NCBI GenBank assembly: GCA_029881255.1
Contig: JAOUMY010000013.1
Coordinates: 62,001 to 126,000, forward strand
DNA from: Gammaproteobacteria bacterium
Lineage (GTDB): Bacteria; Pseudomonadota; Gammaproteobacteria; S012-40
DNA: 64,000 bases
Direction of reading: 5' to 3'
Part shown: one piece after another, positions 4,064-64,000 of the stretch
Numbering within the stretch: the first letter of the stretch is position 1
How the letters are laid out: every line of letters starts with the position of its first letter
Made by a program: the position numbers and the translations under genes
Notes under the pieces: generated by a model
Told to the model about the DNA's origin: nothing
The model's input: only the letters and a program-made list of their open reading frames with translations
Database searches by the model: none

Positions 4064-5197
4064 CTAACAAGGCGCTACAACTGACATTCTCTTTAAATCT
4101 GTAATTACCTTTGACAAGGAATCCACGAACGCATTTATTTCTGAAAGTGTATTTTTTCTTCCTAAGCTCACTCTTATCGCGCCACGTGCTACATCTTCAT
4201 TTACACCCATTGCCAGCAAAACATGACTGGGCTTACCTGAACGCGACGAACACGCGGAGCCACTTGCAACTGCAAAACCCAATTGATCAAGTTGCATGAT
4301 CAATGTTTCGCCATCAATACCTGCGACAGCGAAAAATGTTGTGTTAGGTAACCGCTCCACCGCCTGGCAAAATACCGTTACCCCGGATATTTCTGACAAA
4401 CGACTTTCCAGTGCATCTCTGATCGCTTTGACGCTTTCCTGTTCACCGATGCGGCTTCTGGCTAATCTCGCAGCCTCACCAAAGCCAACAATAGCTGCAA
4501 TATTTTCAGTGCCGGAACGTAGCCCCTTTTCCTGGCCTCCACCATGAATCAATGGATCCAACAACAGAGACTTCTTCGCTACTAAAGCTCCTGCGCCCTT
4601 TGGGCCATACAGCTTGTGTGACGAAAGACTAATCATATCCACGCCGCTTGCCGGAAAATCGATTGTTAACTTGCCGGCCGCTTGTACTGCATCACTATGA
4701 AAAACCACCTTGTTACGCGCCGCTAGCGCGACAACATCGTTCAACACGCCAGTTTCATTATTTGCCCACATCAATGAAACCAGGCTATCCGGGGAAACAA
4801 GAGAAGAAAACGTATCAACAGAGACATTTCCCTCAGGCTCTACCGGCAACGGTTGCGATTCAGCCCAATGTTTTTCATGTACGTAACGCGCAACATCTCT
4901 TACCGAAGGATGCTCCGAGGCACCGTAATAAACATGCTTCAGCCCCATCCCTAAAACGCTTCCTTTGATGGCCAGATTATTGGCTTCTGTACCACCGCTG
5001 GTGAAAATCACCTGCGACGGGTGCGCGTTAACCAGTTCCGCTATTTGCTCGCGTGCGATGTCAAGTGCCCGGTGAGCCTCTCTAGCCAAATAGTGACTTC
5101 CCGAAGCATTTCCAAACCCTGATTTCAAATAGGGTTCCATCGCACTAAACACTTGCTCATCAATAGGGGTGGTAGCATTGTGATCGAAGTAGATCAT
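4064..5197 (-). CDS. Second cysteine desulfurase (NifS/IscS-like)
   Basis: Class V aminotransferase-fold cysteine desulfurase of 377 residues, about 27 shorter than IscS. It starts MIYFDHNATTPIDE, carries the PLP lysine in SLSSHKLYGPKGAG and the catalytic cysteine in GSACSSRSGKPSH. It lacks the IscS C-terminal SPLWEMY tail, so it probably does not dock IscU in the same way. It lies between iscR (37 bp gap) and iscS (24 bp gap) and is surely part of the isc transcript. Tandem desulfurases downstream of iscR occur in some gammaproteobacteria; the division of labour is not evident from sequence. It may be a group I enzyme that serves another acceptor. Confidence 0.92.
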   Translation of the reverse strand: MIYFDHNATTPIDEQVFSAMEPYLKSGFGNASGSHYLAREAHRALDIAREQIAELVNAHPSQVIFTSGGTEANNLAIKGSVLGMGLKHVYYGASEHPSVRDVARYVHEKHWAESQPLPVEPEGNVSVDTFSSLVSPDSLVSLMWANNETGVLNDVVALAARNKVVFHSDAVQAAGKLTIDFPASGVDMISLSSHKLYGPKGAGALVAKKSLLLDPLIHGGGQEKGLRSGTENIAAIVGFGEAARLARSRIGEQESVKAIRDALESRLSEISGVTVFCQAVERLPNTTFFAVAGIDGETLIMQLDQLGFAVASGSACSSRSGKPSHVLLAMGVNEDVARGAIRVSLGRKNTLSEINAFVDSLSKVITDLKRMSVVAPC

Positions 5198-7580: not shown

Positions 7581-8360
7581 ATGCAACCAATGGTCAATAT
7601 CGCTGTCCGCGCAGCCCGTCAGGCAGGGAACGTTATTGTACGTGCTCTGGACCAAATCGACACATTGAATATCAGAGAAAAAGCCACAAATGACTTCGTC
7701 ACCGACATCGATCTACGTGCCGAGCAAGAAATCATCAAGGTCATCAAAAAGGCCTACCCTCACCATTCCATCCTTGCCGAGGAAAGTGGCACCAATCAGG
7801 GCAGTGAATTCGAGTGGATAATCGACCCACTGGATGGCACGACTAATTTTCTGCACAATTTCCCCCAGTTTGCCGTCTCTATCGCGGTCAGATACCGTGG
7901 GCGTCTGGAGCACGCTGTCGTTTACGACCCCCTACGACAGGAGATTTTCTCTGCTTCTGTTGGTGAAGGTGCGCGCTTGAATGACCGTCGCATACGGGTG
8001 ACCAGTCGCCCTAATATGAAAGGCGCGCTTCTTGGAACCGGCATCCCGTTTCGTGAAGATCAAGACCTCGAACTGTATCTGAAAACCCTGCGCGCCCTGT
8101 TGCCTGACTCCGCCGGTGTACGCCGACCAGGCTCAGCAGCACTCGACCTGGCCTATGTCGCCGCAGGTCGAATAGACGGTTTCTGGGAAATGGGTCTACA
8201 GATCTGGGATATGGCCGCAGGCATACTGCTCATCCAGGAGGCCGGCGGGATCGTGACAGACCTAAAAGGCGGCTCCGATTATTTTGAAACCGGCAACATC
8301 ATTGCTGGCGGCATGAAAGTGCAGGCAGAGATGACAAAGCGCATCAAATCAAGCCTGTAG
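7581..8360 (+). CDS. suhB: Inositol-1-monophosphatase SuhB
   Basis: Mg-dependent phosphatase that hydrolyses inositol phosphates; E. coli SuhB also acts in rRNA transcription antitermination. The 259-residue product starts MQPMVNIAVRAAR, matching the E. coli start, after GGAG. The open frame extends some 350 bp upstream, but that part overlaps trmJ on the other strand and has no family similarity. Metal-binding motifs are present: EESG, then WIIDPLDGTTNFLH (motif 1), and IWDMAAGILLIQEAGG (motif 2). It diverges from trmJ across about 100 bp that must hold both promoters. Confidence 0.96.
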   Translation: MQPMVNIAVRAARQAGNVIVRALDQIDTLNIREKATNDFVTDIDLRAEQEIIKVIKKAYPHHSILAEESGTNQGSEFEWIIDPLDGTTNFLHNFPQFAVSIAVRYRGRLEHAVVYDPLRQEIFSASVGEGARLNDRRIRVTSRPNMKGALLGTGIPFREDQDLELYLKTLRALLPDSAGVRRPGSAALDLAYVAAGRIDGFWEMGLQIWDMAAGILLIQEAGGIVTDLKGGSDYFETGNIIAGGMKVQAEMTKRIKSSL

Positions 8361-17734: not shown

Positions 17735-17821
17735 GCCGGGGTGGCGGAACTGGTAGACGCGCCGGATTCAAAATCCGGTGGTGGTGACATCGTGTCGGTT
17801 CGACTCCGACCCTCGGTACCA
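17735..17821 (+). tRNA. tRNA-Leu (anticodon CAA)
   Basis: An 87-nt class II tRNA. The acceptor stem pairs GCCGGGG with CCTCGGT, the anticodon stem CCGGA/TCCGG encloses loop TTCAAAA with anticodon CAA at 17769-17771, a long variable arm is present, and the T arm reads GTCGG-TTCGACT-CCGAC. The 3' CCA is encoded (17819-17821). It reads UUG codons. A terminator follows at once, so it is a single-tRNA transcription unit. Confidence 0.97.
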
Positions 17822-39022: not shown

Positions 39023-39212
39023 TTGGCGCTCTCTGGTATTCAGGTAAGTACCTCGAATATTTCTTGAGCCGATAAATCACTCTCCGGGGACTAAATTCTG
39101 GCATTGTGTGCATGTCCGCTCGACGGAAAGCCTAATATGTCAGTCGCTGTCCCCAAGCTGAACTCCAGGGTTCAAGGAGAGCGAGGACTACGGAATTTCC
39201 GGAGAGTGCCAT
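39023..39212 (+). ncRNA. ssrS: 6S RNA (SsrS)
   Basis: Regulatory RNA that binds sigma70 RNA polymerase in stationary phase. It lies between zapA and fau, the standard place. A perfect 12-bp closing stem joins GGCGCTCTCTGG (39025-39036) and CCGGAGAGTGCC (39199-39210). Inside are family motifs: TTGAGCCGATA on the 5' side and CCAGGGTTCAAGG on the 3' side, with a central bubble between. Length is about 186 nt. Exact ends are estimated. Confidence 0.93.
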
Positions 39213-61976: not shown

Positions 61977-62813
61977 TTATTTCGCAGCGGTCCTGATGCG
62001 TATCGCTTTCCTGTCGCCCTTCTTTGCCGGATATCGCAGCCCATGTCTAATTACCCATTTGACTTCCCTGCTCGGATTCTCCAGCCATTTTTCGAAAATT
62101 CCGTAAACCAGTTCAGGGTGATCTTTCACGATATCACCAAAGTGATTGGCAACACTGCGTCGCACATACAGACATGAATCAATTTTCAGTTTTTCCAGTA
62201 TCGGCAAGACTGGCCCAGGATTTTCAATAAATGCTGGAATACGTGGCGCCCATGGCAATCTCGGACGCGTCCCCTCCGAACACAATCGGCGCACATGAGG
62301 ATCGGGATCACTTGTCCACTCCAATAAAGTACCCAAGGTGCGTGCCTGCTGCTGAATCAGAAATGGGCGAATAGAAAACTCTGAAGTGTTGCGCTTCGTC
62401 AATTCATACTGTGCCCGCATCGAAACGGCAAAGGGATCTTCACCCTCGTTGTGTTTGGCATCCAAACCAAATTCCGACACAAAACAACCATGCGTGTGAT
62501 AGAAGAAAACCGCCAAACCCAAGCCTTCGGTTTCCCCATTCGGCGGAGTTAAAGAAGACAAAAGAATGTCGATCGCCGTTGCATATTTTTGCGGCAAGTA
62601 CGAGCGTAGCGCCTTAGCGATATGTGTTCCACGTTCGAGAAATTCCAGCGCATCCAAACCCGACAATGCAGCGTCTTGAAATTCTTTTGCCTTGAAAGCT
62701 GGATAGACGAATGCGAGATTATTGGCCAAATACCGAACCGCTTCCGGGCCCAATACGTTTTTTAACGGGAAGCCTTTTTGAATAACTTTGGGTGCGTCTG
62801 GAATGCGTAGCAT
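61977..62813 (-). CDS. DNA alkylation repair protein-like HEAT protein
   Basis: 278-residue helical-repeat protein similar to AlkC/AlkD-type DNA alkylation repair proteins. These flip out and excise alkylated bases with a HEAT-like solenoid. Typical segments are KVIQKGFPLKNVLGPEAVRYLANNLAF near the start, EWTSDPDPHVRRLCSEGTRPRLPWA in the middle and DSCLYVRRSVANHFGDIVKDHPELV. The open frame extends to 62924, but the family fit starts about MLRIPDAPK (ATG 62813); ATG 62879 is also possible. Confidence 0.8.
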   Translation of the reverse strand: MLRIPDAPKVIQKGFPLKNVLGPEAVRYLANNLAFVYPAFKAKEFQDAALSGLDALEFLERGTHIAKALRSYLPQKYATAIDILLSSLTPPNGETEGLGLAVFFYHTHGCFVSEFGLDAKHNEGEDPFAVSMRAQYELTKRNTSEFSIRPFLIQQQARTLGTLLEWTSDPDPHVRRLCSEGTRPRLPWAPRIPAFIENPGPVLPILEKLKIDSCLYVRRSVANHFGDIVKDHPELVYGIFEKWLENPSREVKWVIRHGLRYPAKKGDRKAIRIRTAAK

Positions 62814-63075
62814 AGTCTCAATAAAAAATGGATGCGCCAGGTACAGACTTGTATTAAAACACAGAGCCTCCCGTTCCATACACTCAGATTGCGTTCCTCG
62901 CTTTTCATCGCGTCGCGATCCCAAACGGCCTAGAACCCTCTCAAAATACGCCCTCTTACACCCGGGCCACTTTTCACGCCAGCAGTGGTAATGTTTTTCC
63001 TTGAAAAATCACCCATATTTCTATTAAATCAATGAGGTATTAGCGCGGCCTGGAAAGATAGGTAGCCTCGCCCGG

Positions 63076-63188: not shown

Positions 63189-63214
63189 TTAAGAAGGGGC
63201 TACTGATAAAAATG

Positions 63215-63845
63215 TTAGCTTTATAAGACACAAAACATATGCACAAGAATCAACTCAATGTCGAAACCCCAATAGGCACGTTACTATTTCACGTAACTGC
63301 TGGTGAAGGTGATATTGAAAAGGCTCATATATCAGAATGCACTATAGAACCCAAAATCCCAGATGGAATGAGTGTTAAAGGCTGTAAAGCTGTGCTTTTA
63401 AGAAATACGTCAATAACTCCTCTCAAGAATGTAGTTTTTTCTTGTTCTTGGCATGGGTTGAAGGCAACGGGCTATGGGAACTCTGGCGAGGGTCTAGATG
63501 CTTGGGAATGGGAACATAATAAAACACTGGTTATGATCGGAACCGAAGATGATGAGTATCTAGGTTCAAGAGTAAAGCTGAAAAAAACCTCTTCAACCTA
63601 TTACCCAATAACAATGGAAGACAACAGTATAAAAATACATGTTAGTGAGTATCCTGAAAATAAAGAACTATCACTTCATTTCATTATTTCATGGAATTCA
63701 GTCCCAGAAGAAGTTGATAGTTCTTGTTGGTACGCAGTTGATGTTCCACATGAGAGGGTGCTGGAAGAATGCAACTAAAAGCTAACAAGGCGCTCGTTCG
63801 GACGCAAACTACGCTGCGCTTCGTTTGCGCCGCACAGCTTCAACG
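63215..63845 (+). mobile_element. Integron-type gene cassette
   Basis: The left edge GTTAGCTTT (63214-63222) is the exact reverse complement of AAAGCTAAC at the 5' end of the attC site (63778-63786). That is expected when the two were joined in the circular cassette. The right edge is GTTGAAC (63845-63851), a GTTRRRY core. Between them lies one short gene starting 24 bp after the left edge and ending right at attC, the classic compact cassette plan. No integrase is in the window. Confidence 0.8.
63239..63778 (+). CDS. Cassette-borne hypothetical protein
   Basis: 179 residues, family unknown. Beta-rich (KAVLLRNTSITPLKNVVFSC; LSLHFIISWNSVPEEV) with no signal peptide or membrane segment. Clearly AT-richer than the neighbouring chromosome, a sign of transfer. 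There is no strong ribosome site before the ATG, which is common for cassette genes. Cassette genes in environmental integrons often encode toxins, antitoxins or enzymes; nothing here allows a choice. Confidence 0.75.
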   Translation: MHKNQLNVETPIGTLLFHVTAGEGDIEKAHISECTIEPKIPDGMSVKGCKAVLLRNTSITPLKNVVFSCSWHGLKATGYGNSGEGLDAWEWEHNKTLVMIGTEDDEYLGSRVKLKKTSSTYYPITMEDNSIKIHVSEYPENKELSLHFIISWNSVPEEVDSSCWYAVDVPHERVLEECN

Positions 63846-63851
63846 TTGAAC
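63781..63851 (+). repeat. attC recombination site (59-be)
   Basis: GCTAAC followed by AAGGCGC, an imperfect palindrome whose core pairs GGACGCAAAC with GTTTGCGCC with one unpaired A, and a final GTTGAAC. The unpaired base in an otherwise matched stem is how integron integrases tell the bottom strand. The TAACAAGGCGC motif is common in environmental cassette arrays. Confidence 0.8.
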
Positions 63852-63900
63852 GTATCCGCTGCGCGGAGGAATAAAATGTCAAGAAAAGGAAAACAAGAAA

Positions 63901-64000
63901 ATGACAATAACGCTGCAAGAGGTGTTTGCCACCTCGTTTGATGATTATGCGTCAACACGTCGACTTCCAATAAAGCATTATAAAGCTGCGGAGTCGATAA
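63901..64000 (+). CDS. IS91-like transposase, N-terminal fragment (cut by window edge)
   Basis: The last 100 bases hold an open frame from ATG 63901 (MTITLQEVFATSFDDYASTR, then LPIKHYKAAESI) that runs off the window. The FDDYA and HYKAAESI segments resemble the N-terminus of IS91-family Y2/HUH transposases, which move by rolling circle and need one origin end. AAGGA lies ten bases upstream. A 21-codon frame from 63876 precedes and overlaps it. Only 33 residues are visible, so the assignment is tentative. Confidence 0.55.
   Translation, partial: MTITLQEVFATSFDDYASTRRLPIKHYKAAESI

Follow-up and report, generated by a model that had tools for sequence, protein, structure and literature searches.

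The insertion sequence IS91 targets GTTC or CTTG beside its origin end, and the IS1111-attC group carries a transposase of the IS110 type. Mobile elements tied to attC, the recombination site of integron gene cassettes, are described in the available part of one report for both the IS1111-attC elements and the group IIC-attC introns (PMC9229058); they use other enzymes than the unit described here and are said there to invade attC, whereas our unit carries its attC along. The same portion of that report describes ISShvi3, in a Shewanella integron, as creating a new cassette structure (PMC9229058), a single case that we compare by its description only. A further case is gcISKpn22, which the accessible text of its report presents as a cassette of the class 1 integron In722 on IMP-6 plasmids (PMC6262049); in what is available of another, In722 is reported both with and without ISKpn22 (PMC12772345).

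Here we describe a cassette array at the right edge of a 64,000-nucleotide stretch of gammaproteobacterial DNA (the window), and an IS91-family transposase unit within it. The unit resembles gcISKpn22, which starts with GTTGAAC after the aadA2 attC, has R'' GTTCAAC in its own attC, is followed by the 3'-conserved segment and falls in the same clade as our transposase. It differs in its protein, which is 38% identical, and in the position of attC, about 170 bases behind the gene in gcISKpn22 but overlapping the gene end in our unit. Membership of the IS1111-attC group was rejected, as our transposase is a Y2 HUH enzyme. Single cases (gcISKpn22, ISShvi3) are already in print, but in full-text searches of a literature library with few subscription journals and preprints, no listed paper gave an account of the lineage as such, its shared ends or its spread in its title or at the start of its abstract.

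Methods

The window comprises positions 62001-126000 of contig C13, from a 4.97-Mb genome in 44 contigs; L006 denotes the C13 sequence taken on to the contig end. Sites of attC were sought with a covariance model trained on 19 attC sites, all from other genomes, and with a box-pairing finder that recovers just 3 sites in L006 and whose counts are lower bounds. A first, fold-based finder was discarded because it missed most array sites and assigned the transposase attC a wrong R''. As a single-protein query against genome and viral contigs, our transposase found no relative; an alignment of five relatives used as the query gave 80 genome loci and 4 viral ones, to which loci from related genomes and plasmids were added. 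The loci were split by similarity rank into a close set (L053-L074, L021, L048, L049 and our two copies, 27 in all) and a distant set of 62. When the split was made, the surroundings of our own copies, of L021, L048 and L049, and of L020, which is identical with the element L053, were already known; those of the others were not. The tree was built without ISCR sequences.

A cassette array at the edge of the window

The array begins at 63214, its left end flanked by ordinary chromosomal DNA with a HEAT-repeat protein gene (Table 1). The boundaries that the first-pass annotation had drawn for the leftmost unit, cassette 1, were recovered as drawn, with GTTAGCTTT at the left, the R'' box AGCTAAC, and a core GTT followed by GAAC. 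A match to the attC of cassette 1 was obtained with the covariance model (21.6 bits, E 0.007), in line with the attC called from the letters alone, and the same model found no further attC in the 64 kb window. When the cassette's own start serves as R', as in the circle form, the bottom strand takes up a canonical attC fold with unpaired stem bases; the fold of the in-array strand alone is slightly better than its shuffles (z about -1) and was uninformative.

Table 1. Features at the right edge of the window (window positions).
Feature	Position	Strand	Basis or remark
HEAT-repeat protein gene	61977..62924	-	ORF and Pfam HEAT, E 7e-06
Gene cassette 1 (leftmost array unit)	63214..63844	+	start GTTAGCT
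ORF in cassette 1, 179 aa	63239..63778	+	without Pfam, NCBIfam or PADLOC match
attC of cassette 1	63780..63851	+	R'' AGCTAAC at 63780, core GTT at 63845
Transposase cassette copy a, first 156 bases	63845..64000	+	whole unit 1313 bp, to C13:127157 (L006 3846-5158)
IS91-family transposase gene, 5' end	63901..64000	+	full gene 416 aa, L006 3902-5152

Beyond the window, the array continues for 10.9 kb to the end of the contig. By eye, L006 holds 13 complete units and the beginning of another, and the covariance model places eight attC sites in it. Thus, the suggestion that the cassette might be the end of an array running on past the window proved right, while the description of a single cassette at a secondary site was wrong as to its being single; the start at 63214 may nonetheless be a secondary site, as no attI or attC was recognised upstream of it. 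The statement that no integrase is visible extends to the whole of C13, where the rightward sequence yielded further attC sites but no intI gene; a full-length IntI (404.9 bits, above the cut-off) is encoded on contig C14 of the same genome. Because it has several attC sites while no IntI was matched on C13, the array is a CALIN (attC cluster without integrase). As C13 ends inside the array, a link to the IntI contig C14 is possible.

Separate from the full C14 copy, a remnant of an integron integrase, split over two frames, lies at C1:4248-4908. One large cassette of the C13 array holds a type III-A retron-like pair (L006 11574-14287; C13:133573-136286), consisting of a winged-helix PRTase (PADLOC PRTase_III-A, E 3e-118) and a reverse transcriptase (RT_III-A, E 2e-171). 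A cassette ORF at L006 10083-10826 is a possible defence gene: it matches the PADLOC entry 'Effector, TIR' (E 4e-19) and, weakly, nucleoside deoxyribosyltransferase. Within the window, the sole Rfam matches at the gathering score are a 6S RNA and a tRNA (39027-39209 and 17735-17818).

Anatomy of the transposase unit

An IS91-type transposase had been placed within 60 bp of cassette 1, and its ATG indeed lies 57 bases past that cassette, leaving just 100 bases of the gene inside the window. The full frame matches Y2_Tnp (E 6.6e-56), Zn_Tnp_IS91 (E 5.2e-27) and NCBIfam transpos_IS91 (384 bits); these domains and the catalytic residues identify a Y2 HUH transposase that has a zinc-binding domain at its N terminus, the mark of the IS91 family. 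The unit starts with GTTGAAC, followed by a short hairpin (TCCGC-TGC-GCGGA), and extends as far as the GTT with which the next cassette begins. Its attC lies outside the window, inside the 3' coding end of the gene (R'' at L006 5051, core at L006 5159). A second, identical unit of 1313 bp is found four cassettes further along the same array, and both copies are complete at their left and right ends, with ordinary cassettes on either side.

In both copies R'' GTTCAAC is the exact complement of the unit start, and the L'' box GCTCAACGCGGAAATCGC pairs with L', leaving extra bases unpaired, as located by the box-pairing finder, which gave 0 matches in five shuffles of the array. These two sites are below the reach of the independent attC model at E 1. 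With the unit's own start as R', however, the attC shape is the minimum-energy structure of the bottom strand, and the circle form gave this shape in all five transposase units tried; with the neighbour's start, as in the array, the bottom strand is not attC-shaped (z -0.01). We conclude that the transposase gene is very probably itself a gene cassette, whereas the first-pass annotation had treated it as the neighbour of one.

Relatives and their ends

Together with the relatives from 26 further loci, our transposase falls in a single clade, with a support of 100/100. Its 27 rows are the close set plus L077; L077, L073, L074 and L072 are long branches. The clade spans Pseudomonadota, Nitrospirota, Thermodesulfobacteriota, Planctomycetota, Myxococcota and one MAG labelled Actinomycetota, although several of these are MAG contigs and possibly misbinned.

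When 700 bases upstream were searched, a start exactly complementary to R'', with attC pairing, was present at 20 of the 27 close loci (our own counted twice), compared with 1/62 distant IS91 loci (L077) and 9/308 control placements at equal search width. Inspection by eye of the seven misses in the close set showed that L060, L064 and L070 are without an intact right end, and that the ends of L054, L066, L072 and L073 are near-complementary. Among units having both ends (our own taken once and L077 added), 20 of 24 are exactly complementary. The clade start GTTGNAC occurs in 26/27 units versus 2/41 other cassettes; one of these two, in L067, is in fact another transposase unit, the second of a tandem. 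All four bases occur at N and R'' covaries with them, giving the pairs GTTGAAC/GTTCAAC, GTTGGAC/GTCCAAC, GTTGCAC/GTGCAAC and GTTGTAC/GTACAAC. Behind the start, a hairpin whose stem measures at least 5 is present in 13/27 clade units, 15/19 integrase-type IS91 elements (described below) and 2/41 other cassettes.

At E <=0.05, the attC model matches the transposase attC of L049, L055, L058, L061, L067, L069, L071, L073 and L074. At E <=0.1, an attC was matched at 8 of the 14 clade loci outside the training set, at 1/12 loci with an IS91 transposase of neither group (L099) and at 9/27 integrase-type loci. The HUH residues H156 and H158 and the catalytic Y247 and Y251 are retained in 27/27 members, and dN/dS between two Undibacterium copies is 0.10 (69.5 synonymous and 28.5 non-synonymous differences).

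We read the end pairing as a constraint that attC folding would impose, and the start motif with its hairpin as a probable sequence constraint from the transposase; the ends are conserved in sequence, and for the motif and hairpin this conservation may instead reflect common descent.

Tandem copies occur at two loci. In Undibacterium nitidum (L062 4925-7986), head-to-tail transposase cassettes are identical over 1531 bp, a third copy being the one used in the dN/dS comparison; in L067, the cassettes also stand head-to-tail, at 4428 and from 5956. Past the attC of the transposase cassette in L053/L020, from about 2198, there is a reverse-transcriptase ORF resembling group II intron proteins, possibly of an attC-targeting intron.

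Integron setting and proposed movement of the unit

An IntI-like protein (42-51% identity to our own IntI) is encoded just left of the unit at L056, L059 (partial), L061, L064, L068, L071 and L077, and the transposase thus appears to be the first cassette at those loci. An attC ends at the unit start in L021, L048, L049, L055 and L057, and by the attC model also in L058, L067 and L072. We also considered insertion of the close group outside integrons and rejected it, because where the upstream attC is missing, the locus mostly has IntI in its place or offers too little sequence. Fifteen of 17 carrier genomes have an IntI above the curated cut-off (the exceptions are those of L054 and L057, and the genome of L062 was not included), compared with 72 of 185 in the class to which the window belongs; the comparison is rough, since the 17 come from several phyla. 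In the 19 genomes searched, no cassette-type copy was seen outside an integron and there was mostly one per genome. The search gave 21 places past E 1e-70, of which two beyond the known loci adjoin recombinase matches and look integrase-type.

The explanation that we favour, and to which as a whole we attach about an even chance, is that of an array without its own integrase in which the transposase represents a cassette lineage with dual-use ends. It starts from what can be read directly in the DNA, namely cassette anatomy, a position within arrays or beside IntI, compensatory changes between the two ends and conserved catalytic residues. As a single-stranded circle, the unit would fold its bottom strand into attC, and the integron integrase would insert the folded unit at attI or attC. 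With less confidence, we suggest that the transposase is still functional and that its own termini would be these same ends, GTTGNAC with its hairpin on the left and the GTNCAAC hairpin with GTT on the right, so that IntI and the HUH enzyme encoded in the unit could each move it, with one G^TT core serving both. Continued activity is suggested by the catalytic residues kept in every member, the dN/dS value and the conservation of the GTTGNAC start and 5' hairpin. That the enzyme would itself use attC is, judged from these sequence features, a proposition for which belief and doubt weigh about the same.

Much of the setting would also be expected if an IS91 transposase gene had been captured once as a cassette and were now moved by IntI only, its enzyme inactive on the ends. 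Wherever the contig is long enough to judge, cassette-type copies are in an integron setting, copies are mostly one per genome, carrier genomes nearly all have IntI, and the ends follow the attC pairing rule. We nevertheless consider this the less probable account, albeit a serious one, because the catalytic residues are retained throughout with a dN/dS of 0.10, and because the start motif and hairpin are absent from ordinary cassettes but common to non-cassette IS91 elements.

Integrase-type IS91 elements

A second group of IS91 elements has a tyrosine-recombinase gene before the transposase. Like our unit, these integrase-type elements have a related transposase and a hairpinned GTTGAACTAAACCGC start and often stand directly left of a cassette; they differ in the extra recombinase gene, in ends that are not strictly complementary and in lying on the other side of the tree. 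Their 3' end is a short hairpin behind GTYCAAC, before GTT. The next seven bases are a cassette start with matching attC in 7/16 (7/10 where at least 880 bases downstream are given), compared with 14/167 random GTT starts. The two ends match exactly in 7/16, two of the 16 being without a 5' end. That these elements possess a true attC was rejected, as the attC covariance model fails to match their 3' hairpins. A true IntI lies about 760 bases left of the element in L115, and the element in L129 is located at ATT, indicating that the target is not strictly GTT. L134, an IMG/VR contig classed as viral, has two attC-like sites (7655-7741 and 8211-8265) behind an integrase-type element. Overall, the integrase-carrying elements that adjoin cassettes look like non-cassette relatives of the cassette lineage.

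These elements lend some weight to the view that our unit is purely an insertion sequence, placed by its own transposase at the GTT cores of attI and attC, much as other elements target attC, with the attC likeness being that of an IS91 origin hairpin and IntI uninvolved: their ends are similar, they adjoin cassettes more often than the controls do, and the ATT site in L129 points the same way. We regard it as unlikely, however, since the cassette-type ends covary through four pairs and are exact more often than the integrase-type ends (20/24 vs 7/16), since they show attC features with unpaired bases, and since a model whose training sites came from other cassettes matches nine transposase attC sites.

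Discussion

The proposal that one-ended IS91 rolling-circle transposition brought the neighbouring cassettes, by which IS91 and ISCR elements are thought to mobilise adjacent DNA according to the available part of one report (PMC13393415), is very improbable here, because the transposase unit has a 5' start and a 3' attC of its own and is flanked by attC sites, and both copies are complete at each end amid ordinary cassettes.

Returning to the dual-use reading, a wider implication would be that the attC of these cassettes doubles as the origin end for a HUH transposase that is active, that this second enzyme shuffles and extends arrays by cutting the folded bottom strand at the core used by IntI, and that IS91 ends were one evolutionary source of attC, and hence of cassettes. 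We put this forward tentatively, as a doubtful extension prompted by sequence comparison; IS91 ends come into question as a source of attC because non-cassette IS91 elements have similar 3' hairpins and occupy att sites of integrons. A transposase lineage with its own attC, with catalytic residues kept and with ends constrained as both IS91 termini and attC would provide a direct test system for attC acquisition and for other cassette movers.

A member of the lineage is already resident in resistance integrons of Enterobacterales: the ISKpn22 element was found in 13 of 5426 E. coli genomes and in 11 plasmid records, in all cases at >=99% identity.
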